Positions 34,990 through 47,719 of a stretch of 64,000 nt of DNA are shown in pieces (the stretch's first letter is position 1; each line of letters begins with the position of its first letter). Where the stretch lies: NCBI GenBank assembly GCA_020832415.1, contig JAFIES010000143.1, forward strand, positions 1 to 64,000, read 5' to 3'. Source of the DNA: Balneolaceae bacterium. GTDB taxonomy: Bacteria > Bacteroidota > Rhodothermia > Balneolales > Balneolaceae. The notes under the pieces are model-generated. The model was not told where the DNA came from. It was given only the letters and a program-made list of their open reading frames with translations, and ran no database searches. Made by a program: the position numbers and the translations under genes.

Positions 34990-35556
34990 ATGTTGCAAAA
35001 ATTAGAAAATATCGCTGATGTCCGGTTTGGGAATCCATTTAAGTCTTCCGATAACAGGGGTGTGGCCTATTTTCAGGTAAATAATTTAAATGGTGATGGG
35101 CAGTTAGATGAGAGCCAATTAGTCTATATACCGGAAAATGATAATATAGACACGAGTGATTATTTACAAACAGGTGATATTCTTCTACCTGCTAAAGGAA
35201 GTAAATTTACTTCTGCTATCGTCCCAAAAAAATACAACACCCTTTCAGTCGCCTCCTCTTCGCTGTTTGTAATTCGGGCAAAAAATAATGGTGTGCTGCC
35301 TGAGTATTTGCAATGGTATTTGAATTTACCCCGTACCCGGTGGGAGCTTGAAAAAGGCGCAACAGGTACGAATATTAGTTCACTATCAATCAAATATCTG
35401 AGAAAATTAAAGATTGAAGTGCCGGACTTGTATACACAAAATAAACTGATTCGGTTAAAATATTTACAGGAAAAAGAAGCTGAAATTTTGAATCAATTGC
35501 TAAATGCCAGAAAGAAGCTGGTACAAGCTATAACAAGAAACATTATAGATAATTAG
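34990..35556 (+). CDS. hsdS: Single-TRD type I specificity subunit (half-HsdS)
   Basis: 188 residues: one target-recognition domain (LENIADVRFGNPFKSS..., VASSSLFVIRAKNNGVLPEYLQWYLN, ATGTNISSLSIKYLRKLKIEVP) followed by one coiled-coil conserved helix (KLIRLKYLQEKEAEILNQL). A full HsdS has two of each and about 400 residues, so this is a half subunit, able in principle to dimerise. It starts the operon, 3 bp before hsdM. A second, full-length S gene lies at 39560. Confidence 0.8.
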   Translation: MLQKLENIADVRFGNPFKSSDNRGVAYFQVNNLNGDGQLDESQLVYIPENDNIDTSDYLQTGDILLPAKGSKFTSAIVPKKYNTLSVASSSLFVIRAKNNGVLPEYLQWYLNLPRTRWELEKGATGTNISSLSIKYLRKLKIEVPDLYTQNKLIRLKYLQEKEAEILNQLLNARKKLVQAITRNIIDN

Positions 35557-35559
35557 ATA

Positions 35560-37050
35560 ATGAGCCAGGAAATATCCCAAGACAAAATTAACACAGTTGC
35601 ATGGAGTGCATGCGATACGTTTCGAGGTGTGGTTGACCCTTCTCAATACAAGGATTATATACTCATATTTCTGTTCATTAAATATCTGTCCGATTTGCGA
35701 AAAGACCGGATGGAAATACTTTATAAAGAATATGATGGAAATGAAGAGCGTATTAAACGAGCTTTAAAGCGAGAGCGGTTTATTCTTCCCGAACACTGTA
35801 CGTATGATCATATATATAAGCATCGCAGCGAACCCAATATCGGTGAGATTATTAATAAAGCCCTGCACGATATTGAAGAAAGCAACAAAGAGAAGCTGGA
35901 TGGAGTGTTCAGAAATATTGACTTTAACTCCACAACAGCCCTTGGGGAAACAAAGGAGAGAAATTCCCGCCTTAAAAGTTTAATTGAAGACTTTAGCGAT
36001 CCGTTGCTGGATTTCCGTCCTTCTAAAATTGGAAAAAGAGATGTGGTCGGAGATGTTTACGAGTTTTTGATATCCAATTTTGCTTCTGATGCAGGAAAAA
36101 AGGGAGGAGAATTTTACACCCCATCTGAAGTTTCGGAACTGATGGCTCGCTTACTTCAGCCACAATCCGGAGAACGATTGTATGACCCTACCTGTGGTTC
36201 CGGATCATTATTGATCAAACTTGTTCAGCAAGTACCCGATAAAAATTACTCCGTATATGGACAAGAGAGTAACGGTAGTACATGGGCCTTGTGTAAGATG
36301 AATATGTTTCTGCACGATATTGACAATGCCCGGATTGAATGGGGAGATACCATAAAAAACCCCAGGCTAACCGAAGACGACAAATTGATGAAGTTTGATG
36401 TTGTTGCGGCTAATCCCCCCTTTTCATTGAAAAAATGGGGTGTTAAAGAAGCCGAGCATGATTCATACAATCGTTTTTGGCGAGGTATTCCACCAAAAAC
36501 CAAAGGAGATTACGGTTTTATTACCCATATGGTGGAAAGCCTGAATGAGCATGGCCGGATGGTTGTGGTGGTTCCTCATGGTGTGTTGTTCAGGGGTAGT
36601 CGTGAAGCTAAAATCAGGGAGCAGTTTATCAAAGAGAACTTGCTGGATGCCGTGATTGGTTTGCCGGAACAGCTCTTTTTTGGTACCGGTATACCAGCTG
36701 CCCTGTTAGTCTTTAAGAAAAATCGCGACCGGAAAAATATACTGTTTATTGATGCCAGCAACGAGTACCTGGATGGTAAAAAGCAAAACAAACTGCGGGA
36801 ACAGGACCTCGAAAAAATCTACCAAACCTATCGCGACTATAAAACCATAGACAAATACAGCTATGTAGCGGAACCCGAGGAACTGGAGGAAAATGAATAC
36901 AACCTCAATATTCCCCGCTACGTCGATACGTTTGAGGAGGAGGAAGAAATAGACATTCCTGCGGTACAGAAAGAAATTGAGCAGCTTGAACAGGAGCTAT
37001 CTGAGGTGCGTAGTGAAATGGATGAATATCTAAAGGAATTGGGGTTTTAA
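35560..37050 (+). CDS. hsdM: Type I DNA N6-adenine methyltransferase HsdM
   Basis: 496 residues. An N-terminal helical HsdM domain precedes the SAM-binding motif DPTCGSGSLL (209-218) and the catalytic NPPF (285-288). GEFYTPSEVSELMARLL is also typical. It methylates adenine at sites chosen by HsdS and forms the M2S core of the restriction complex. The C-terminus is an acidic coiled-coil. It begins 3 bp after the half-HsdS stop. Confidence 0.95.
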   Translation: MSQEISQDKINTVAWSACDTFRGVVDPSQYKDYILIFLFIKYLSDLRKDRMEILYKEYDGNEERIKRALKRERFILPEHCTYDHIYKHRSEPNIGEIINKALHDIEESNKEKLDGVFRNIDFNSTTALGETKERNSRLKSLIEDFSDPLLDFRPSKIGKRDVVGDVYEFLISNFASDAGKKGGEFYTPSEVSELMARLLQPQSGERLYDPTCGSGSLLIKLVQQVPDKNYSVYGQESNGSTWALCKMNMFLHDIDNARIEWGDTIKNPRLTEDDKLMKFDVVAANPPFSLKKWGVKEAEHDSYNRFWRGIPPKTKGDYGFITHMVESLNEHGRMVVVVPHGVLFRGSREAKIREQFIKENLLDAVIGLPEQLFFGTGIPAALLVFKKNRDRKNILFIDASNEYLDGKKQNKLREQDLEKIYQTYRDYKTIDKYSYVAEPEELEENEYNLNIPRYVDTFEEEEEIDIPAVQKEIEQLEQELSEVRSEMDEYLKELGF

Positions 37051-37174
37051 GATGGGAAATAACCATATCAAGGAAAAACACCGAATCCATAAAACACTAA
37101 AATACAATATCTTGAATTGCATCAGGGGTTACCGGGAATAATGTTCAATTAATATAAAAAGAAATGATGGAATC

Positions 37175-37957
37175 ATGAACTTCGAACATATCATACTGGA
37201 AGAGGAGCAAAAGGAATTGTTTATTCAAATTGTGGAAAATTGGAAAAGAATTCCAAGAGAGGATCGGATAGTAATGGTGTATTCTCAAGACTCGATTGGC
37301 GGTGATTTGACTGTTTTAAGTAAAAGTTCAGGCCTTAATGTAATCAATAACATCATAATTGGAGATCTGGATGAGCTTTCAAGCAACGGTTTGTTACGAG
37401 AGAAATACACAAAAAAGGGAGGAGAAAATTATTTAGTATCACCCAAAGGCTTCCAATACTACGAATGGTTGATGAACAGAGAGGGAAAACCTGTTGAACG
37501 AATTGAAAAGAACATTCTGAAATATATTGAGCTTGATGCATTTAAAACTACCTACAGCGAAGCCTACAAAAAACTGAAACAAGCCGAGGTGTTGCTGTGG
37601 TCCAGTGATAGCCAAGAAAATTTTACAACTATCGGCCACCACTGCCGCGAAGCGATGCAGGAGTTTGCCGACCGGCTCTACACTGAAGTAATTGGAGAAA
37701 AATCAGACCAATTGAAATCACGGGACAAGAACCGAATTAAATCAGTAATAGAAGCAAAAAAAGAAAACGTAAGTACAACGGTTGTTCCATTTCTTGAAGC
37801 ACTGAATAACTATTGGAATGCATTATCTGACCTGGTGCAGCGGCAGGAGCACGGCGGACAAAAAGAAGGTGAACCGCTCACCTGGGAAGACGCCCGCCGG
37901 GTGGTGTTTCAGACAGTAAATGTGATAGTGGAACTGGATAAGACTTTAAGGAAATAA
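37175..37957 (+). CDS. Unknown protein with winged-helix-like N-terminus
   Basis: 260 residues, not recognised as a family. Residues about 45-95 (LTVLSKSSGLNVINNIIIGDLDELSSNGLLREKY...YLVSPKGFQYYEWL) read like a winged helix. The C-terminal half is all-helical with HHCREAMQEFADRLYTEV and SALSDLVQRQEHGG. Such proteins are common passengers in restriction loci. It is 125 bp after hsdM and 14 bp before the HEPN gene, so probably one operon. A role in defence is inference from place. Confidence 0.6.
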   Translation: MNFEHIILEEEQKELFIQIVENWKRIPREDRIVMVYSQDSIGGDLTVLSKSSGLNVINNIIIGDLDELSSNGLLREKYTKKGGENYLVSPKGFQYYEWLMNREGKPVERIEKNILKYIELDAFKTTYSEAYKKLKQAEVLLWSSDSQENFTTIGHHCREAMQEFADRLYTEVIGEKSDQLKSRDKNRIKSVIEAKKENVSTTVVPFLEALNNYWNALSDLVQRQEHGGQKEGEPLTWEDARRVVFQTVNVIVELDKTLRK

Positions 37958-37971
37958 AAAAAGTTCATGAT

Positions 37972-39540
37972 ATGAGTCGAATTAAACCAAAATTAGAAAA
38001 TCTTATTAAAATAGAATCGCTGGATAAGTTTTCAGATGAGGATGCAATTCAAATTATCGGAACTATTCAGGACATGTCTTATAAGAAAGAATTTTTAGAA
38101 GGCATGAATCATGCTCTGAGATTAGCTGATTCAATAAAAGAAAGAAATTTTAGTATGCTTTATTCAGCCTACTATCATTACACTTTTGGAAATATCTGGT
38201 ATGATAGGTATAAATTGCAAAATCCTAAAAAATTAGCCTGGAAATGGGAGTGTCAAGATTACAACCAGATAATTATTCACTATAGAATAGCATCAAGGGA
38301 AGTGAGTGCCTTGAAACTTAGCAATCCTGGAGAAATCGATCTATACTCTAAAATCACTACTAATCTCGCCAACAATTTATCCCATTTAGGGCGAATTATT
38401 GAAGCGATCGAAAACTGGAATAACTGCCTAATAAAAAACGATTTATTTGGCATGGCAAGGGGTAATTTAGGTCATGGTCTTATGCAGTATTCAAAAAATG
38501 TTTATGATTCTGGTCATAAAGCATTTCTTCTTCGGGAAGCATATAAGAATTTGCATAAGGCATTTACACCCGACATAACACCCGAAGCAAAAAAAGGGTT
38601 TTCGAATTGTTTAAAACAGATAGAATCATGGTTAGATAAAAAATTTCTTAATGAAGAGATAGATTTAAACAAATGGGAATTAGGTAACACTAATAATGAA
38701 AAGCGATACCGTAGATGGTGTTTAGATAACAGGCTTTTTCTGAATCCCTTAAATGAACTTGGCAATTTTTCAATTGCAGCACAAGATGTTTTACACTTAC
38801 CGGATATCATATTAAAGATTGATGAAAAACCATTTCATCATGGGTTGTACAATGTAATTAAGCAGGAATATGTGGCAGCCCGGTATTTACTTTTTGAATC
38901 AACACTGTATGCCAATCAAGGAGAGATGCATTATGCCGACAAAGGGAATCTGATGGTAGATACATTGGATTATTCCTTCCATTCAATTGGTATTGAAAAG
39001 ATGAAGCTGACATTCAGGATGGCTTATTCGATTTTTGATAAGATCGCTTTTTTTATGAATGAATATTTCAAATTGGAAGTGAAGCACCATCAGGTCAATT
39101 TCAAAACAATATGGTACACCAAAAGAAAGAAGGAAAATGGAATTAGAGAAGAGTTTGACAGCCGCGAAAATTGGCCATTGAGAGGACTTTATTGGCTGGG
39201 CAAAGACCTGTTTGAAACAAACAATGAATTTAAAAATTGTCTCGAGCCGGATGCCAAAGAAATAAATAAGGTTCGAAATCATTTAGAGCACAGATACTTG
39301 AAGGTTCATATGTTTAAAGTACCCGATGAAGATTTCTTTTTCTCAGATAGTCTGTGCTACTCTATTTCAAGAGATAATTTATTTGAAAAAACACTCAGAG
39401 TTTTAAAACTCTCTCGAGCGGCAATCATGTATTTATCTTTTGCAGTAAATGTTGAGGAAACAATTAGAAAAAAAGAGCTGGATCAATCAATAGTTGCGCC
39501 AATTATGTCTACCGAACTATTCGAAGGATTGCGTTTTTAA
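37972..39540 (+). CDS. LA2681-type HEPN protein, candidate RNase effector
   Basis: 522 residues. An N-terminal helical, TPR-like part (about 60-220) is followed by LNPLNELGNFSIAAQDVLHLP and HGLYNVIKQEYVAARYLLFES, which match the LA2681-like HEPN family. The HEPN active-site motif is present as R435-N-x3-H440 (VRNHLEHRY). HEPN proteins are frequently metal-independent RNases used in toxin-antitoxin and phage-defence systems. It lies inside the type I operon, between hsdM and the full hsdS, so it may act when restriction fails. That is inference. Confidence 0.75.
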   Translation: MSRIKPKLENLIKIESLDKFSDEDAIQIIGTIQDMSYKKEFLEGMNHALRLADSIKERNFSMLYSAYYHYTFGNIWYDRYKLQNPKKLAWKWECQDYNQIIIHYRIASREVSALKLSNPGEIDLYSKITTNLANNLSHLGRIIEAIENWNNCLIKNDLFGMARGNLGHGLMQYSKNVYDSGHKAFLLREAYKNLHKAFTPDITPEAKKGFSNCLKQIESWLDKKFLNEEIDLNKWELGNTNNEKRYRRWCLDNRLFLNPLNELGNFSIAAQDVLHLPDIILKIDEKPFHHGLYNVIKQEYVAARYLLFESTLYANQGEMHYADKGNLMVDTLDYSFHSIGIEKMKLTFRMAYSIFDKIAFFMNEYFKLEVKHHQVNFKTIWYTKRKKENGIREEFDSRENWPLRGLYWLGKDLFETNNEFKNCLEPDAKEINKVRNHLEHRYLKVHMFKVPDEDFFFSDSLCYSISRDNLFEKTLRVLKLSRAAIMYLSFAVNVEETIRKKELDQSIVAPIMSTELFEGLRF

Positions 39541-39559
39541 AACAATTTCACAATTTAAC

Positions 39560-40831
39560 ATGAAAGAAGCATTAACAAATAAAGAGTTAGATCAAAAACC
39601 CGGATACAAAAAAAACAAATTGGGATGGATTCCTAAGGATTGGGAAATAAAAAAACTGAAAGCCATCGGATCGTTCAAGAATGGAATGAACAAATCTAAA
39701 GAAGATTATGGTAATGGGCGTCCATTCGTAAATTTAATGGATGTATTTGGCAGAAAAGCTGTTAATCTAAATGGATTGGGGTTAGTTGAAACAACAGAAA
39801 ATGATCTTTTAAAGTATGGGCTAAAAAAAGGAGATGTTTTATTTATCAGATCATCCGTAAAGCCATCCGGAGTCGGATTGGCAGCTTTAGTTGATAAAAA
39901 TCCTGGGAAAGTAACTTATAGTGGTTTTTTAATCAGATTTAGAGAAAAGGGATACTTATATGATGAATACAAAAAATATTGTTTTGATGAACCAAAGTTC
40001 AGACATCGTTTAAAATGTAAAAGTACAATAAGTGCAAATACAAATATAAATCAACAATCTTTAGGCAATTTAAGGCTATTGCTTCCACCCCTCCCTGAAC
40101 AAAAAAAGATCGCCGAAATCCTCTCCACATGGGATCGCGCCATTGAAACCCTGGAGCAGCTAATCGCCAAAAAAGAGGAGCTGAAGAGAGGGTTGATGCA
40201 GAAACTGCTAACCGGTAAAACGAGGTTTCCGGGGTTTGAGGGAGTGTGGGAGGAAATTAAGCTAAACAAACTAATTACTACTTTTTCTGGAGGCACTCCG
40301 AGTAGAAGTAAGCCAGAATATTACAATGGAACTATTCCTTGGATTAAATCTGGCGAATTAAATACACGACGAATTTTTAACACAAAAGAATTTATTACAG
40401 AAGAAGGCCTAAAAAATTCATCTGCAAAATTGGTTAAAAAAAATACATTGCTGTTAGCAATTTATGGAGCAACTGCTGGAGTTATTTCGGTAAATATGAT
40501 GGAAAAAGCATCTATAAATCAGGCAGTATTAGCATTGGTTCCCAAAAACAATAAAATTGATCAAGGCTTTCTTGAACTATGGTTTTCGTTCAATAAAGAT
40601 AAAATTGTTCACACTTATACACAGGGTGGCCAGCCAAATTTAAGTGCAAAAATCGTGAAGTCTTTAACGATTGAATGTCCTGATGTTGAAGAACAAAGAA
40701 AGATTTCTAAGTTGATATTTTCAATTTCAAATGAAATTGAGATTATGAAAAAAGCTATTAATGCTTTTAAAAATCAGAAAAAGGGATTGATGCAGCAATT
40801 GTTGACGGGAAAGACAAGGATTAAGGTGTAA
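39560..40831 (+). CDS. hsdS: Type I specificity subunit HsdS (full length)
   Basis: 423 residues from the ATG at 39560; the frame opens at 39494 inside the previous gene but the earlier start is unlikely. Two target-recognition domains, each followed by a conserved helix: TRD1 starting WIPKDWEIKKLKAIG, then PLPEQKKIAEILSTWDRAIETLEQLI and KRGLMQKLLTGKTRFPGF; TRD2 starting WEEIKLNKLITTFSGGTPSRSK, then KKGLMQQLLTGKTR. The repeated LMQ.LLTGKTR marks the pseudo-symmetry. It recognises a two-part DNA site for HsdM and HsdR. Confidence 0.93.
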   Translation: MKEALTNKELDQKPGYKKNKLGWIPKDWEIKKLKAIGSFKNGMNKSKEDYGNGRPFVNLMDVFGRKAVNLNGLGLVETTENDLLKYGLKKGDVLFIRSSVKPSGVGLAALVDKNPGKVTYSGFLIRFREKGYLYDEYKKYCFDEPKFRHRLKCKSTISANTNINQQSLGNLRLLLPPLPEQKKIAEILSTWDRAIETLEQLIAKKEELKRGLMQKLLTGKTRFPGFEGVWEEIKLNKLITTFSGGTPSRSKPEYYNGTIPWIKSGELNTRRIFNTKEFITEEGLKNSSAKLVKKNTLLLAIYGATAGVISVNMMEKASINQAVLALVPKNNKIDQGFLELWFSFNKDKIVHTYTQGGQPNLSAKIVKSLTIECPDVEEQRKISKLIFSISNEIEIMKKAINAFKNQKKGLMQQLLTGKTRIKV

Positions 40832-40849
40832 ACGAAACCAAGAGGTATT

Positions 40850-42049
40850 ATGGCAACATATAAAACAAGAAGTACATCACGTAATTCTGCTGAGATTGAA
40901 GAGGACATTGTTCTGGATGATAAGCTTGGAAACACAAGGAAGATATTTAGACCTCAAATTGTCAAGAAAGGATCAGAGGTTTTGGTGCGTGGCCACTTAA
41001 TCCACCAAAGAAAAAATGTAAATGATGAATGGGAAGATACTGATGCTATTAATTTAAACACCTTAAAAGGTGGTGAAGGTGTGAAGCTGCAACTAAGAAG
41101 TAAGCAGATGAAAAAGTTTTACGAAGCACTTAACCATCTTTATGAAATTGCTAAAGAAGGTGTGCCACGGGGCGAAAGAGAGTGGACTGTAGAACGAGCG
41201 GATCAAATTATCAAAGTTGATTCCAACAGAGTAGTGTTTGTTCGGCGGTTACTTGAGCAAGATTTTGGTGATGAAATTTGGCAAGAGCTATTAGATCAAA
41301 AACCAGATTTGGCAACAAAGTTGGCTAACGCGAGAATTCAGCAAAACCGGGAAAATTCACTTGATCTTTTTACTCAAGCACTCGAAAGAACTGCTGATTT
41401 AAACGAGGATTGGTGGCAAAATTTCTTTGCAAAGAATACCTGGATATTCGGATATGGGTTAAACTATCAGTTCTTGCATCTACTTGAAGATCAGCCAGAT
41501 TGTGGAGGCAGAAGGTATACCGGTAAGGGTTCACAGAAAGGTGATTTCTTAATGAATACAGAGGCACAAGTCCGTTTCACCGTTCTTGTTGAAATCAAAA
41601 AACCCAATACGCCGCTTTTTCAAAAAAACTCAAAAAGAGAATTAAAAAGACATCGAAATGGAGCACTTTTACTACATGATGAATTAACCGGAGGTGTCTC
41701 CCAGCTTCAATCAAATTGCCATCGATGGTACACAGAAGGTTCAAAGAGAACTGATGACTTTGAACAACTTACATCGGAAGAGATATTCACCTATCAACCA
41801 AAAGGCATCTTAGTAATTGGAGATACGAGCCAATTAAAAGAATCTATTGATGCAAGATCTACCTTTGAGCTTTACAGAAGAAATCTGTCAAATCCGGAAA
41901 TCATTACATTTGACGAACTCTATGAGCGAGCAAAGTTTATAGTTGAACAAGATGAAACTGAAATAATTGATGAATATGATAAATCAGAATCATTCGATGA
42001 TATAGATACCGAAGAAATTGAAGTTTGGGAAAGTGATTTGCCTTTTTAA
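40850..42049 (+). CDS. Shedu (SduA, DUF4263) nuclease-type defence protein
   Basis: 399 residues. The N-terminal 170 residues are family-variable. The C-terminal SduA domain has EDWWQNFFAKNTWIFGYGL followed by the PD-(D/E)xK core: Asp232 (GDF), Glu248 and Lys250 (VLVEIKKPNTPLF). Shedu is a single-gene anti-phage system with nuclease activity. Here it sits 18 bp after hsdS and 15 bp before a small gene, inside a type I operon, so the two defences share a transcript. All three putative catalytic residues are present. Confidence 0.82.
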   Translation: MATYKTRSTSRNSAEIEEDIVLDDKLGNTRKIFRPQIVKKGSEVLVRGHLIHQRKNVNDEWEDTDAINLNTLKGGEGVKLQLRSKQMKKFYEALNHLYEIAKEGVPRGEREWTVERADQIIKVDSNRVVFVRRLLEQDFGDEIWQELLDQKPDLATKLANARIQQNRENSLDLFTQALERTADLNEDWWQNFFAKNTWIFGYGLNYQFLHLLEDQPDCGGRRYTGKGSQKGDFLMNTEAQVRFTVLVEIKKPNTPLFQKNSKRELKRHRNGALLLHDELTGGVSQLQSNCHRWYTEGSKRTDDFEQLTSEEIFTYQPKGILVIGDTSQLKESIDARSTFELYRRNLSNPEIITFDELYERAKFIVEQDETEIIDEYDKSESFDDIDTEEIEVWESDLPF

Positions 42050-42064
42050 ATCAAATACAAAATA

Positions 42065-42349
42065 ATGACAAGCGAAGAATTATATCAACTGCTTACAAAC
42101 TTTCAGGAAGAAAGCCTCCTTAAGTTAGGAATGGAAAAAGAGGATGGATTTTGGACACATCCCAATTCAATAGCTCGATTTGAAGTTTCTGGTAATAACC
42201 TAATTGTCTACAGAGGTGGAATTGCAATTGGAAGATTATGTGCTTCAATTAATGAGCCTGGATCTCTTTACAATACATTAATCGAGACTGATGTAATTGA
42301 ACCGGCTACACATCTGAATTACCTAAGGGAAAAAGGATTAAAACTTTAA
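42065..42349 (+). CDS. Small protein of unknown function, 94 residues
   Basis: Not recognised. MTSEELYQLLTNFQEESLLKLGMEKEDGFW then short strands (ARFEVSGNNLIVYRGGIAIGRL) and LNYLREKGLKL. It lies 15 bp after the Shedu gene and 3 bp before hsdR, so tight spacing argues for a real gene of the operon. It may be a partner or inhibitor of the Shedu protein; nothing proves that. Confidence 0.65.
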   Translation: MTSEELYQLLTNFQEESLLKLGMEKEDGFWTHPNSIARFEVSGNNLIVYRGGIAIGRLCASINEPGSLYNTLIETDVIEPATHLNYLREKGLKL

Positions 42350-42352
42350 ACC

Positions 42353-45300
42353 ATGAACACCCCTTCCTACATCGAAGACCACTCCAGCCAAATTCCGGCA
42401 TTGACGATGCTGAGCAAGTTGGGTTATGAATATTTGCCTCCGGAAAAAGTGGAAGCAATGAGGGGCATCCATTCCGAAGTGTTACTTAAACCGGTATTGG
42501 AAGAACAGCTTCGCAAAATCAACAAGATTGAGTTCCACGGTAAAACCTATCCTTTTTCGAACCACAACATTTCTGCCGCGGTAGATAAGCTGAGTGATGC
42601 CCCGCTGGTCAGCGGACTTATTAAAACCAATGAGCAGTTGTACCACCTGCTTACACTCGGCAGCAGCTTTGAAGAAACCATAGAGGGCGACCGAAAAAGT
42701 TTTAGCCTGCACTATATCGATTGGGAACACCCGGAAAATAATGTTTTTCATGTGGCCGAAGAGTACAGCGTTCAGCGTTCCGGCAGTTATAAAGAGTACC
42801 GCCCGGATATTGTGTTGTTTGTAAACGGCATTCCGCTGGTAATCATCGAATGTAAACGCCCTGATTTAAAAGTGAGGGAAAAAGACCAGCAACCGGTCGA
42901 CCAGGCCATCTCTCAGCACCTCCGGAATCAAAAGAATGACGGTATTCCGGGATTGTACGTCTATTCGCAATTACTGCTTGGCCTTGCGGTTAACAGCAAC
43001 AAATATGCTACTACAGGAACACCGAACAAATTCTGGAGCACCTGGAAAGAGAAATTTGAAACAGAAGAGGAAGAGCAAATCCATGACCGTAAGCTTGAAG
43101 AATTAAAAAATGAATCACTACACCCTGACCTGTTTGAGGGTGTTTTCTCTGACCGGTTTCGTTATGTGAAATCACATTTTGAGGCTCTGCAAAAGGGAGA
43201 TCAAAAAGTCACTGATCAGGACAAGATTCTTTACGGTTTATGTCGCCCTGCTCGTCTTTTGCGCTTTATCAAACGCTATACCTTATATGATGCAGGTGAG
43301 AAGAAGGTAGCTCGCTATCAGCAATTTTATGCTGTAGAAAAGACGCTGACACGAATTCAATCACTCGAACAGGGAAAACGGCAAGGGGGTGTGATTTGGC
43401 ATACTCAGGGTTCCGGAAAGTCCCTGACAATGGTAATGCTTGCAAAAGGTATTGCGCTGGATAAAGGAATTCCCGATGCCCGTATTGTTTTGGTCACCGA
43501 TCGTGTGGACTTGGATGATCAAATCTATGAAACGTTTGATGACTGCGATCTGGAACCGGTTCAGGCATCTACCGGTAAACATCTGATTGAACTGCTCAGG
43601 CAGAAGAAGAGGGCCGTTATAACAACGGTCATCAATAAGTTTGAAGCTGTGATTAAAAAGAGCAAGGTGAAGGAGGAGTCACCCAATATATTTGTATTGG
43701 TGGATGAAGGCCATCGCACGCAATACGGAACGGCCAATGTTCGGATGCAGCAAACGTTTCCCAATGCCTGCTTTATTGCGTTTACCGGAACTCCATTGAT
43801 GAAGCAGGAAAAACATACTGCACGAAAGTTCGGTGGCATTATAGATACCTATACCATTAAAGAGGCAGTCAGCGATAAAGCGGTCGTTCCACTGTTATAT
43901 GAAGGACGACATATTCCGCAAGAGGTCAATAAAAAGCCTATAGACACCTATTTTGAACGGATTTCGGAACGATTAAATGAGAAAGAAAGAGCCGATCTAA
44001 AGAAGAAATTTAGCAGGGCTGATCAGCTGAATGAAGCCGAACAAAAGCTGATGACCATTTGCTACGATATCAGCGATCACTTTTCAAAAACATGGCAAGG
44101 TTCCGGTTTCAAAGGTCAGTTAACCGTTCATTCCAAAACAGCCGCGATCAGGTGTAAACAATTCCTGGATGAATTCGGAAAGGTAAGCTCCGAAGTGATC
44201 ATTTCAGGCCCGGATACCCGTGAAGGACATGAAGACATGGACGAGGAAAACATCGATATCGTTCAGAAATTCTGGAAAAGAATGATGGAGCGTTTCGGTA
44301 CCGAAAAAGAGTACAACAAGCAATTGATCTACCAGTTCAAAAGTGACGAAGATCCAGAGATCATGATTGTGGTGGATAAATTGATTACCGGGTTTGACGC
44401 TCCCCGAAATACGGTTTTATACATTGCAAGGAGCCTGAAAGAACATAAACTGCTTCAAGCCATAGCTCGTGTCAATCGTTTGTTTGAAGGGAAGGATTTT
44501 GGGTACATCATCGATTACTATGGCATTCTTGGTGAGCTGGATGAGGCTTTGACAACATACAGTGAACTGCAAGAGTTTGAGGAAGAAGAATTAGAGGGCA
44601 CCTTAGCAGATATTCAGCAAGAAATAGAGAAACTCCCTGAGCGTCATGCCCACGTGTGGGACATATTTAATGGAATAGATCGAAGTTTGGATGCTCAATA
44701 TTATGAGCAGCATTTGGAAGATGAAGATATTCGGGATGAATTTTACGAGCGGCTATCTCTGTTTGCCAGAACTTTGAAAATGGCTCTTTCTACTTTTGAT
44801 TTTATTCAAAATACAGATCCTAAAAAGGTCAACCAGTACAAGAATGACGCAAAGTTTTTTATGAGTTTACGCTCATCCGTAAAAGCCCGGTATTCTGATG
44901 CAATCGATTATGGCCAGTATGAAAAACAAGTACAGAAGTTGATAGATACGCATGTAACCTCCAGTGAAGTTGTGAAATTGACCGAACAGGTTAACATTTT
45001 TGATGAAGACAAGTTTGAGCAGGAATTAGCGAAAGTTGAAGGTGACGCCGCACGGGCTGACCGGATAGCGTCTCGCACAAAAAAATCAATTAGTCTGGTA
45101 ATAGATGAAGATCCTGCTCTCTATAAAAAGTTTTCAGAAATGCTGGAGCAAACGATTAGTAACTGGAAGGCTCGACGACTATCTGATGCGGAATATTTAA
45201 AACGGGTTAAGGAAATCATGGAAAAAGTTCGTTCCCGGTCTTCCGATGACATTCCTGAAGAGTTAAAAGGGAAAAAAGCTGCCCAGGCTATCTATGGCAT

Positions 45301-45586
45301 CGTTAATGAGATCATGAACGGTGGCAAAGTCAGATCTGTAGGTATGCCTTATGGTTCGGATTCATCTCAACCAGGAACGAGTGAAATGGGTATCCAAATT
45401 GATGAAATCATCCAAAATCATTTGGTGGTAGATTGGCAGTTTAAGACAGATATTAAGAATGCAATGCGGCAGGATATTGACGATTACCTTTTCTCATTGC
45501 GGGATAAGGGTGTAGAATTAACATTGGAGGAAATGGATGATATTATTGAAAAATCTATCGAATTGGCTATCAGGAATTACACATGA
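42353..45586 (+). CDS. hsdR: Type I restriction endonuclease HsdR
   Basis: 1077 residues. N-terminal nuclease of PD-(D/E)xK type (PDIVLFVNGIPLVIIECK, Asp152, Glu166, Lys168), superfamily-2 helicase with Walker A TQGSGKS (351-357) and Walker B DEGH (451-454), then the helical C-terminal domain that docks on M2S. It translocates DNA and cuts away from unmethylated sites. It overlaps the next gene by 4 bp. Confidence 0.95.
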   Translation: MNTPSYIEDHSSQIPALTMLSKLGYEYLPPEKVEAMRGIHSEVLLKPVLEEQLRKINKIEFHGKTYPFSNHNISAAVDKLSDAPLVSGLIKTNEQLYHLLTLGSSFEETIEGDRKSFSLHYIDWEHPENNVFHVAEEYSVQRSGSYKEYRPDIVLFVNGIPLVIIECKRPDLKVREKDQQPVDQAISQHLRNQKNDGIPGLYVYSQLLLGLAVNSNKYATTGTPNKFWSTWKEKFETEEEEQIHDRKLEELKNESLHPDLFEGVFSDRFRYVKSHFEALQKGDQKVTDQDKILYGLCRPARLLRFIKRYTLYDAGEKKVARYQQFYAVEKTLTRIQSLEQGKRQGGVIWHTQGSGKSLTMVMLAKGIALDKGIPDARIVLVTDRVDLDDQIYETFDDCDLEPVQASTGKHLIELLRQKKRAVITTVINKFEAVIKKSKVKEESPNIFVLVDEGHRTQYGTANVRMQQTFPNACFIAFTGTPLMKQEKHTARKFGGIIDTYTIKEAVSDKAVVPLLYEGRHIPQEVNKKPIDTYFERISERLNEKERADLKKKFSRADQLNEAEQKLMTICYDISDHFSKTWQGSGFKGQLTVHSKTAAIRCKQFLDEFGKVSSEVIISGPDTREGHEDMDEENIDIVQKFWKRMMERFGTEKEYNKQLIYQFKSDEDPEIMIVVDKLITGFDAPRNTVLYIARSLKEHKLLQAIARVNRLFEGKDFGYIIDYYGILGELDEALTTYSELQEFEEEELEGTLADIQQEIEKLPERHAHVWDIFNGIDRSLDAQYYEQHLEDEDIRDEFYERLSLFARTLKMALSTFDFIQNTDPKKVNQYKNDAKFFMSLRSSVKARYSDAIDYGQYEKQVQKLIDTHVTSSEVVKLTEQVNIFDEDKFEQELAKVEGDAARADRIASRTKKSISLVIDEDPALYKKFSEMLEQTISNWKARRLSDAEYLKRVKEIMEKVRSRSSDDIPEELKGKKAAQAIYGIVNEIMNGGKVRSVGMPYGSDSSQPGTSEMGIQIDEIIQNHLVVDWQFKTDIKNAMRQDIDDYLFSLRDKGVELTLEEMDDIIEKSIELAIRNYT

Positions 45587-46275
45587 ACACCATTAATTAC
45601 GGGAAAAAAGAGATTGGTTATGAATTGCAATTTACAGACCGTAAAACATTGGGAATAACGGTTTATCCTGATTTGAATGTGGTAGTAACCGCACCAGAAG
45701 ATGTCAGCAAGGAGAAAGTCCAGGAAAAAGTTAAATCCAAAGCACGCTGGATTTTAAAACAGCTTCGGACATTTGAGAAGTATCAGCCACTCTCCAAATC
45801 CAAAGAATTTGTTTCGGGGGAAACCCATCTGTATTTAGGCCGACAATACTTATTAAAAGTAGAAAAAGGTTCTGATAATCAAGTAAAACTGAAGGGTAAA
45901 TACCTGAGGGTAAAATCCAAAAACAAGAAAAAGGTTGAAGGGTTGGTATATGACTGGTACCGGTTAAAAGCTCAGATTCATTTCAGTACTATTTTAGATG
46001 ATCTGTTGCCGGAATTTGAGAATCATGATCTGAAAATAAATGAACTCAATATTCGCAAAATGAATACTCGTTGGGGCAGCTGTACTCCCGGAGGTATCAT
46101 TACATTAAACTTACACCTGATTAAGGCTCCAAAACGGTGTATTGAATATGTGATATTGCATGAGCTTTGCCACCTTATACATCATAAACACGATGCCGCT
46201 TTCTACCGCTTGTTGAATTCAAAGATGCCTCACTGGAAAAAGTGGAAAGAGAAGCTGGAAATTACATTAGCTTGA
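45583..46275 (+). CDS. YgjP-like zinc metallopeptidase (M48/SprT-like, DUF45)
   Basis: 230 residues. The zinc site is ILHELCHLIHHKHDAAF (HExxH at 193-197, further His following), with MNTRWGSCTPGG upstream, the family hallmark. The gene overlaps hsdR by 4 bp, a frequent arrangement in type I loci, so the two are translationally coupled. Its role there is not known; a link to clearing protein from DNA is a guess from the SprT-like fold. Confidence 0.85.
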   Translation: MNTINYGKKEIGYELQFTDRKTLGITVYPDLNVVVTAPEDVSKEKVQEKVKSKARWILKQLRTFEKYQPLSKSKEFVSGETHLYLGRQYLLKVEKGSDNQVKLKGKYLRVKSKNKKKVEGLVYDWYRLKAQIHFSTILDDLLPEFENHDLKINELNIRKMNTRWGSCTPGGIITLNLHLIKAPKRCIEYVILHELCHLIHHKHDAAFYRLLNSKMPHWKKWKEKLEITLA

Positions 46276-46350: not shown

Positions 46351-46367
46351 GTTCGCAATTTGCGAAC
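46351..46367. promoter_or_regulatory. Palindromic operator of the higBA module
   Basis: GTTCGCAA-T-TTGCGAAC, a perfect 17-bp palindrome 28 bp before the higB start, with TAGCTTAG (46375-46382) as a -7-like element between. This is where HigA should bind. A 10-bp version GTTCGCGAAC lies inside the higA frame at 47149-47158. Confidence 0.75.
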
Positions 46368-46394
46368 TTTTTTGTAGCTTAGAAGCGTTATGAA

Positions 46395-46739
46395 ATGAGA
46401 ATACACCTAATTAAAGAAAAAACGGTTATTGATTATGCAAACGAACATGCAACATCAACCGGTGCATTTTTACGATGGATCGAAATAATAAAAAATGCAG
46501 ATATAAAGAAACCACAAGACTTTGTTGACCTGTTTGGCTCAAAAAGTGTTGACATACTGGGTAATAAAAGCGATCGAGTATGTTTTAATGTTGGTGGAAA
46601 TAAACACCGGATCATTTGTTCCTATTATTTCAATGAAACGGTAAACACAGTCACTATTTTTGTAAAATGGATTGGAACTCACGCAGAATATGACGCCATT
46701 AATGAACGAGAAGAACAGTATACAATAGATAAGTATTAA
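46395..46739 (+). CDS. higB: HigB-type mRNA interferase toxin
   Basis: 114 residues, RelE superfamily. The C-terminal FVKWIGTHAEYDAI and the middle GNKHRIICSYYFN are typical of the HigB_toxin family. HigB cuts mRNA on the ribosome and arrests growth unless HigA holds it. Toxin-before-antitoxin order is usual for hig. It is the first gene of a three-gene module and follows an operator palindrome; it starts 119 bp after the metallopeptidase gene. Confidence 0.9.
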   Translation: MRIHLIKEKTVIDYANEHATSTGAFLRWIEIIKNADIKKPQDFVDLFGSKSVDILGNKSDRVCFNVGGNKHRIICSYYFNETVNTVTIFVKWIGTHAEYDAINEREEQYTIDKY

Positions 46740-46745
46740 AAGATT

Positions 46746-47264
46746 ATGGATACCCTGAAATACAAAGTGATTAAAAGTGATGTGCAATACATCGAGTATG
46801 CTAATCGACTTGAGGAATTGGTTACCAAAGGCCTGGAAAGCCAGGAAGCTATAGACGAGTATGAGTTGCTTTATCTGTTAATCCGCACCTGGGATAATGA
46901 GCATCGGCTGGCTCCGGAATTAGATCCGATAGAGCTCATTAAATCGTTAATGAAAGATCATGAATTATCACAAAACGATCTTGCTAATATAGCAGGGGTA
47001 GGGAAAAGCTATATCTCTGAGATTTCGAATTATAAGAAAAGAATGTCTAAAAAGGTTATTCGAAACATTGCTGAACATTTTAAGATCCAACAAGAGGCAT
47101 TAAACAGGCACTACCGATTGGAAGGTGAAGGTAAATTTGAAGAACGAGGTTCGCGAACAAGTAAAATTTTCGATTTTAAAACCGGTGAACTGGTAAGTTA
47201 CACTGAATCGACTCGCGGATTTGAAGTTCAACCAGATGATCCGAATTATTCAATAGCTAAGTAG
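46746..47264 (+). CDS. higA: HigA-type antitoxin with extended C-terminus
   Basis: 172 residues. An N-terminal helical part precedes an Xre-type HTH (MKDHELSQNDLANIAGVGKSYISEISNYKKRMSKK, about 80-115). About 45 residues follow the HTH (RLEGEGKFEERGSRTSKIFDF... to the end), longer than plain HigA. In toxin-antitoxin-chaperone modules such tails act as chaperone-addiction regions bound by the SecB-like partner. It starts 6 bp after higB and ends 2 bp before the SecB-like gene. Confidence 0.85.
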   Translation: MDTLKYKVIKSDVQYIEYANRLEELVTKGLESQEAIDEYELLYLLIRTWDNEHRLAPELDPIELIKSLMKDHELSQNDLANIAGVGKSYISEISNYKKRMSKKVIRNIAEHFKIQQEALNRHYRLEGEGKFEERGSRTSKIFDFKTGELVSYTESTRGFEVQPDDPNYSIAK

Positions 47265-47266
47265 GA

Positions 47267-47719
47267 ATGAAAGAAAAGAAAAATGTTGATGTATCCTTTG
47301 GGCTAAATTCTTTTGAAATAGAATCATATGAATTTAAGAAGCCTAAAAAAAAACTTAATGTAAACAAGTTAGGATACCAAATTCAGTTTAGGCCAGATAT
47401 TGACGTTGATAATGACACCTTCATTATTGAGATGAAGGTTCAGGCAAAATTTGGGAAAGAATCTGATGAGGCGGTCGGGTCTATACACACAAAGACAAAC
47501 TACAGGGTAATTCTTTTAAAAGATTTAGTAAAAGAAGGAAAACTTGAATTGCCAAAAAACCTTGCTGTTACGCTACTTAGTATTGCACTCTCAACAACAC
47601 GTGGTGCTTTAGCAGCAAAATCCGAAGGAAATATCTTGGCTGAAAATGTGATGCCTCTCATTAACCCTGAAGAGATGTATGAGTCTTCTCCTTTAAAAGG
47701 AGCTATTGAATTAGATTAA
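47267..47719 (+). CDS. SecB-like chaperone of a toxin-antitoxin-chaperone module
   Basis: 150 residues. The beta-rich part (QIQFRPDIDVDNDTFIIEMKVQ, IHTKTNYRVILLKDL) leads to a helix LAVTLLSIALSTTRGALAAKSEG and LINPEEMY, which corresponds to the late helix and Pro-Ile-Asn-Pro end of SecB. General SecB is tetrameric and holds unfolded proteins; TAC-type copies instead protect a fragile antitoxin. The gene is 2 bp after higA, and no secretion gene is near, which favours the TAC role. Confidence 0.72.
   Translation: MKEKKNVDVSFGLNSFEIESYEFKKPKKKLNVNKLGYQIQFRPDIDVDNDTFIIEMKVQAKFGKESDEAVGSIHTKTNYRVILLKDLVKEGKLELPKNLAVTLLSIALSTTRGALAAKSEGNILAENVMPLINPEEMYESSPLKGAIELD

Follow-up and report, generated by a model that had tools for sequence, protein, structure and literature searches.

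In toxin-antitoxin-chaperone (TAC) systems, phage alarms that were recognised as a class not long ago, a chaperone serves as the sensor. For HigBAC, the major tail protein of phage lambda is reported to disrupt the contact between HigA and HigC and so to activate HigB (PMC11980606, citing Mets et al. 2024), and in CmdTAC a phage capsid protein is described as competing for the chaperone (PMC11618068). Pairs of antitoxin tail and chaperone are reported to be transplantable in laboratory work (PMC5105189), and an artificial CmdTA-HigC hybrid is described as active on phages (PMC12671086). Here we analyse a three-gene operon on contig C103, one of the 152 contigs that make up a draft genome of 3.94 Mb; the 64,000-nt stretch of that contig that was studied is referred to below as the window. 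We regard the operon as a TAC of the HigBAC type that probably serves as an anti-phage alarm, with a probability of roughly 0.85. The assignment is founded on gene order, protein families, a predicted SecB fold, conservation of the operator, and the co-occurrence and co-divergence of antitoxin tail and chaperone. A TAC had been suggested by a first-pass annotation on the strength of gene arrangement and a long HigA tail, and the predicted fold, together with the way in which tail and chaperone occur and diverge together, bears that suggestion out.

The operon is compact. On the plus strand, higB, higA and a gene for a SecB-fold protein follow one another with gaps of 6 nt and then 2 nt, as read from the open reading frames in the window, and the SecB-like gene indeed begins 2 bp after higA, as first noticed. 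The reading frames, like the operator and the HigA tail, exceed what chance would produce. As in TAC operons of the HigBAC type, a HigB-family toxin gene stands first: higB (46395..46739, plus strand) encodes 114 aa of the HigB_toxin family (PF09907, E 2.4e-18), the only match to that family in the whole genome. A profile of 8 homologues recovered three HigB sequences of solved structure (E 3e-9 to 3.8e-9), and the protein matches the PADLOC model PD-Lambda-2_A (4.5e-17) and no other PADLOC model at E<=1, the PDC-M64A/B models included. HigB-family proteins are mRNA-cleaving toxins. The helix-turn-helix (HTH) antitoxin gene comes second: higA (46746..47264, plus strand) encodes 172 aa with an HTH_3 domain at residues 65-114 (PF01381, 7.9e-6, which exceeds the cut-off), followed by a C-terminal tail. 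HigA also matches PADLOC PD-Lambda-2_B (5.2e-20) over residues 5-122, which cover only positions 3-120 of the 402-position model, and it falls short of the NCBIfam HigA model (E 0.06, 13.2 bits vs 47.7). Relatives of HigA were found by single-sequence search in 65 of 395 genomes of the phylum. The third gene (47267..47719, plus strand; 150 aa) encodes the sole member of its family in the genome.

A defence island lies directly upstream of the operon, at 34990-46275 of the window. It comprises genes for an HsdS-like fragment (34990-35556), HsdM (35560-37050), an LA2681-like HEPN protein (37972-39540), HsdS (39494-40831), the Shedu protein SduA (40850-42049), HsdR (42353-45586) and a YgjP-like metallopeptidase (45583-46275) whose gene overlaps the end of the HsdR gene; the Shedu and HEPN genes are located within the type I restriction operon. 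Neighbours of this kind favour a role in defence. Among the related loci, L001 adjoins a gene for a PifA-like KAP NTPase, and a Schlafen/AlbA_2 gene is found near L002.

The label 'SecB-like' given to the third protein is invisible to sequence models, because the open reading frame has no Pfam match, here at E<=1. The canonical SecB family, PF02556, is not reached at its cut-off by this protein; among 25 relatives of the chaperone, one alone touched the model, at E 0.053, and a PDB search with a profile of the 25 returned no SecB chain. The relation to SecB thus appears through the predicted fold only. An AlphaFold2 model built from three sequences (pLDDT 84.2, pTM 0.80) consists of four strands and one long helix followed by short helices, and its top Foldseek matches are the SecB chains 1fx3, 1ozb and 1qyn (E 1.3e-4 to 9.1e-4, probability 1.00), next to which comes 5mtw_C, the Mycobacterium tuberculosis TAC chaperone Rv1957 (9.7e-4). 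In VIA comparisons the model aligned best with 1ozb_B (Z 10.2, rmsd 2.9, 119 residues), then with Escherichia coli SecB 1qyn_B (Z 9.8), 1fx3_D (9.7) and M. tuberculosis Rv1957 5mtw_A (8.0); lower matches were the streptococcal protein of unknown function 2o2a (7.9), SecB 5jtl (7.3) and 2hng, also of unknown function (7.2), after which PelC follows at Z 5.0. We therefore treat the product as a predicted SecB-fold protein. Because the Pfam SecB model misses this family of chaperones, counts of TAC systems in this region of the tree may be too low.

A single-sequence search found relatives of the chaperone in 37 of 395 genomes of the phylum, and they are present in 20 of 128 genomes of the order; in most loci the chaperone gene immediately follows an antitoxin gene, which belongs to one of two types. 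Viral contigs and phage records yielded no relatives; among plasmid records, one distant chaperone relative came from Hymenobacter (27% identical across 71% of the query), and 44 records matched HigA at E<=1e-3. The second type of association corresponds to the PADLOC candidate system PDC-M64, whose chaperone component is matched by the window protein (PDC-M64C, PDLC04763, 4.6e-11, residues 13-140). At 28 distinct loci (among L006-L009, L011-L031, L074, L078 and L084), a chaperone gene of this family follows a tailed HTH antitoxin gene, and the first gene encodes some 160 aa. This first gene matched PADLOC PDC-M64A/B in 5/5 cases scanned; four of four such proteins had no Pfam family at E<=0.1, and a profile search of the PDB gave no convincing relative (best E 0.38). 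PDC-M64 would thus seem to be a TAC family whose toxin has escaped recognition, and we found no paper on it in the open-licence literature. More divergent chaperone relatives also occur in the order (L079-L083, L085-L087, L089, L090), several of them behind an HTH gene (HTH_3 in 4/4 scanned, one below the Pfam cut-off); no adjoining HigB or M64-type gene was found at these loci. In the chaperone tree, the HigB-linked proteins group together as one clade (support 100/98); its closest neighbours there, from L006 and L074, accompany M64-type genes (support 92/93). On this tree, a single change of partner would be the simplest history.

The tail of HigA, residues 124-172 (47115..47261, plus strand), is a candidate chaperone-addiction (ChAD) region by virtue of its length and its co-divergence with the chaperone. 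Six distinct HigB-HigA-chaperone loci are available, namely the window, L001, L002, L004, L005 and L088, and their tails after Y123 measure 49, 49, 50, 51, 50 and 51 residues. A comparison of 30 HigA loci contained three with the chaperone gene (the window, L005 and L004) and 27 without. In 13/13 aligned relatives lacking the gene the tail has 3-28 residues, and in 14 more distant chaperone-free HigA proteins it was judged by eye to have about 0-5. The impression that this tail is longer than usual therefore holds, with 49 residues in the window against at most 28 in the 27 loci without a chaperone gene, and the antitoxin extension that marks TAC systems of the HigBAC kind, missing from chaperone-free homologues, is seen in 6/6 loci with the gene (49-51 aa), against 3-28 aa in 13/13 aligned relatives without it. 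One of these 13, L036 (1-1810), from the window's own genus, has kept only a remnant of HigA, with a tail of 17 residues, and lacks the 5′ part of higA, higB and the chaperone gene; its long left-hand stretch may be an insertion. A predicted model of the HigA fold was too poor for use (pLDDT 52.7). Considered without alignment, the window tail showed no likeness to the published ChADs considered, nor was a WHRLSSYR-like motif seen in it by eye.

The extreme C terminus varies. The antitoxin of CmdTAC is reported to end in LAA, a ClpXP signal described as common to other TAC antitoxins (PMC11618068). In the chaperone-linked set, 8/25 antitoxin cluster representatives end in AA vs 0/148 other ORFs of the same loci, a crude background of ORFs of 150 aa or more rather than of annotated genes, and the cluster containing the window and L001 HigA proteins is represented in this count by L002. 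Further chaperone-linked antitoxins end in AS, AG or VG. Window HigA ends in SIAK, as does that of L001, and among the six HigB-type loci only L002 ends in AA. Because 8/25 representatives end in AA and the CmdTAC antitoxin in LAA, degradation by ClpXP is plausible, by analogy, for antitoxins of the chaperone-linked family, with the window protein itself ending in SIAK.

The six loci appear to be composed of two halves that diverge separately, HigB with the N terminus of HigA on one side and the tail with the chaperone on the other, with a change point inside higA. Across all 15 pairwise comparisons of the six loci, identity in HigB correlates with identity in residues 1-58 of HigA (r 0.83, Mantel p 0.0056) and that in the tail with that in the chaperone (r 0.57, Mantel p 0.065), and tail and HigB are uncorrelated (r -0.16, p 0.73). 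Three pairs illustrate the pattern. The window and L001 share identities of 0.49 in HigB, 0.82 in the tail and 0.82 in the chaperone; the order is reversed in L002/L005 (HigB 0.83, HigA-N 0.79, tail 0.24, chaperone 0.44) and in L004/L088 (HigB 0.91, HigA-N 0.91, tail 0.39, chaperone 0.65). At the DNA level, identity between the window and L001 rises from 0.55-0.68 in 5′ higA to 0.81 near 46940 and then stays at 0.76-0.87 until the chaperone gene has almost ended; L002/L005 and L004/L088 show the reverse, a drop from about 0.8-0.9 around 46940 to less than 0.5 around 47160. The part of higA that encodes the HTH (46920..47114, plus strand), where identity shifts level in all three pairs, is thus a candidate exchange region. 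Among 20 chosen M64-type loci, the tail likewise tracks the chaperone once toxin and core are accounted for (partial r 0.61, compared with -0.17 for the toxin), the pairs being non-independent and no p-value being claimed. This divergence looks like the natural exchange of a chaperone-addiction cassette, although one shared tree is not rejected by tree tests. In its full form, the proposal is a natural counterpart of the swap engineered in the laboratory: 3′ higA, from some point within the HTH and including all of the tail, would form with the chaperone gene a mobile sensor cassette that moves between HigB/HigA-N effector halves, and one clade of a chaperone family that elsewhere serves M64-type genes would have been joined once to HigBA; we would give this even odds.

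Upstream of higB, the perfect 17-bp palindrome recorded earlier, GTTCGCAATTTGCGAAC, is confirmed at 46351..46367 (arms 8+1+8), ending 27 nt before the higB ATG. The pattern GTTCGC-N5-GCGAAC is found a single time in the draft genome of 3.94 Mb and starts 43-45 nt before higB in 6/6 chaperone-bearing loci, and in L004 it is extended to a 27-bp palindrome. The looser pattern GTTC-N9-GAAC lies within the last 70 nt upstream in 12/25 HigB loci, including 6/6 with the chaperone (shuffle mean 0.002). In the chaperone-free relatives L038, L039, L040, L044, L054 and L055 both half-sites are altered together, to GTTCTC/GAGAAC in L039 and to GTTTC/GAAAC in L038, L040 and L044; the site is asymmetric in L037, L041, L042 and L057, and the pattern finds none in some other chaperone-free relatives. 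In Bacteroidetes, the promoter consensus is described as TAnnTTTG at -7 with TTTG near -33 (PMC7366714). A -7-like element, TAGCTTAG (46375..46382, plus strand), with one mismatch to TAnnTTTG, begins 24 nt past the first base of the palindrome, and an element stands at this distance in 6/6 chaperone loci, exact in L004 and L088 and with one mismatch in the other four, the window included. We infer that the lineage uses the TAnnTTTG -7 element; a sigma-70-type scan gave 5 matches vs a shuffle mean of 9.1, none of them just before higB. Because it is kept before higB in six loci at fixed spacing from the -7-like element, the palindrome is very likely the operator of the operon and a putative HigA site; it would cover the upstream promoter region and therefore suits autorepression.

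The same palindrome might instead terminate transcription of the upstream hsdR-ygjP genes. It can fold into a hairpin (stem 7 bp, loop 3 nt) with six T behind it; this T run is also kept in L001, L002 and L005, and the hairpin is stable for its composition (-8.7 kcal/mol, z -2.48, 3/200 shuffles equally good); it scored as terminator-like, yet the region holds 2 such sites vs a shuffle mean of 1.8. A terminator would not be expected to keep its place before higB in all six loci at a constant distance from the -7-like element, nor to persist as a perfect palindrome in two loci, L004 and L088, whose T run is shorter and interrupted. L001 and L002 moreover have different genes upstream, and the half-sites co-vary in several chaperone-free relatives, though they are asymmetric in others. 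A terminator in place of an operator is accordingly improbable, and both roles at once are possible. Still less credence is due to a second HigA site within the message, which had been proposed on the basis of a shorter copy of the operator inside higA. That copy, GTTCGCGAAC, is present once in the window at 47149..47158, and it has the half-site GTTCG/CGAAC in common with the operator; it is expected 0.01 times per window and found in 0.0004 of shuffled operons, low single-site probabilities for a site that was chosen after the fact. The operon contains 2 perfect 10-bp palindromes against a shuffle mean of 1.63, and the 10-mer has 4 copies in the genome where 3.8 are expected under equal base frequencies. 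The half-sites of GTTCGCGAAC touch, whereas GTTCG and CGAAC are 7 bp apart in the operator, and the sequence is absent from 4/4 relatives compared (L001, L002, L004 and L005, with L088 outside the comparison), L001 encoding the identical GSRT through different codons. Lacking conservation, with the wrong geometry and about the expected copy number, GTTCGCGAAC was rejected as an internal operator, and its presence is most likely due to chance; the idea of a second site is barely tenable.

Of the alternatives that concern the proteins, one makes the SecB-fold protein a general-purpose export chaperone whose gene happens to lie behind an ordinary two-gene HigBA. In its favour, the genome lacks any match to PF02556, and published TAC chaperones are reported to replace E. 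coli SecB if overexpressed (PMC5105189). An export chaperone, however, fits poorly with so patchy a distribution in order and phylum, with a gene that mostly sits directly behind one of two antitoxin types, and with a long HigA tail confined to loci that have the chaperone gene, and we consider it very unlikely. A stronger contender, though still an unlikely one, attributes the unequal divergence of the two halves to lineage-specific rates or selection with no exchange of a cassette. The topologies are not in formal conflict, as a shared tree was not rejected by AU tests either when the window and L001 were grouped in the HigB/HigA-N data (p-AU 0.102) or when L002 and L005 were grouped in the tail/chaperone data (p-AU 0.25); only six loci are involved; and the junction is blurred, since most pairs have a conserved HTH part. 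Four-fold degenerate sites, compared between the HigB side and the tail side, gave 22/45 identical vs 7/31 in L002/L005 (p 0.030) and 31/51 vs 14/43 in L004/L088 (p 0.0076), with 9/30 vs 31/61 reaching only p 0.074 in window/L001. Their agreement with the amino acids argues for exchange over selection on the proteins, and since the direction is opposite between pairs, neither half is simply the faster one. Together with the shift of DNA identity within higA, these observations lead us to favour exchange of the tail and chaperone as a unit over differences in rate.

We propose the following sequence of events for the operon as a TAC. HigA would repress transcription by binding the 17-bp palindrome over the promoter, and would hold HigB off, probably via its N-terminal part. 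The 49-residue tail would destabilise HigA unless bound by the neighbouring SecB-fold chaperone; were the chaperone occupied by a competing client, by analogy a new phage structural protein, HigA would be lost, freeing HigB to stop translation. Operator binding by HigA, its dependence on the chaperone, its proteolysis, the phage trigger and the RNase activity of HigB are thus all inferred steps. Several results weigh against this reading: sequence searches gave no match to SecB, the correlation of tail with chaperone draws on six loci and has a Mantel p of 0.065, window HigA ends in SIAK and not in AA, its tail showed no likeness to the published ChADs considered, and viral contigs and phage records yielded no relatives. 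TAC systems of this kind are already known, and relative to the open-licence literature the fresh part is the mosaic of HigB and HigA tail, along with a chaperone family invisible to Pfam. If the proposed exchange is true, it would alter what is sensed while the toxin is kept. Matched pairs of tail and chaperone that travel as a cassette could be read directly from genomes and their interchangeability predicted, and triggers could be sought by comparing systems with a common toxin half and different sensor halves.

Among described systems, PD-lambda-2 resembles the window in so far as its models are matched by HigB and, in the N-terminal part, by HigA. Its antitoxin, however, is reported to be fused to a peptidase and its third gene to be related to a P4 phage antitoxin (PMC9519451), whereas the window has no C-terminal peptidase and a third gene of SecB fold. 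The PADLOC candidate PDC-M64 shares with the window a PDC-M64C-matching chaperone, a three-gene arrangement and an HTH antitoxin with a tail; where the window has HigB, however, its first gene belongs to another family, some 160 aa long and unmatched in Pfam. CmdTAC of E. coli is likewise described as a TAC of three genes; its chaperone is homologous to SecB, and its antitoxin has an unstructured C-terminal region. Its toxin, however, is an mRNA ADP-ribosyltransferase, unlike HigB (PMC11618068; PMC9519451), and its antitoxin reportedly ends in LAA rather than the SIAK of window HigA (PMC11618068). The M. tuberculosis TAC, HigB1-HigA1-Rv1957, corresponds in gene order and in the predicted fold of the chaperone (5mtw, Z 8.0), and its antitoxin is reported to carry a C-terminal extension of about 45 residues, compared with 49 here (PMC5105189; PMC6377645); in the structural alignment the two chaperones share 9% sequence identity. 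HigBAC of E. coli C496 has, as described, the same three components, a HigB toxin, a HigA antitoxin and a SecB-like chaperone (PMC11980606). The window chaperone belongs to a family that escapes the Pfam SecB model, and at the level of description, rather than of compared sequences, the window operon is like HigBAC.
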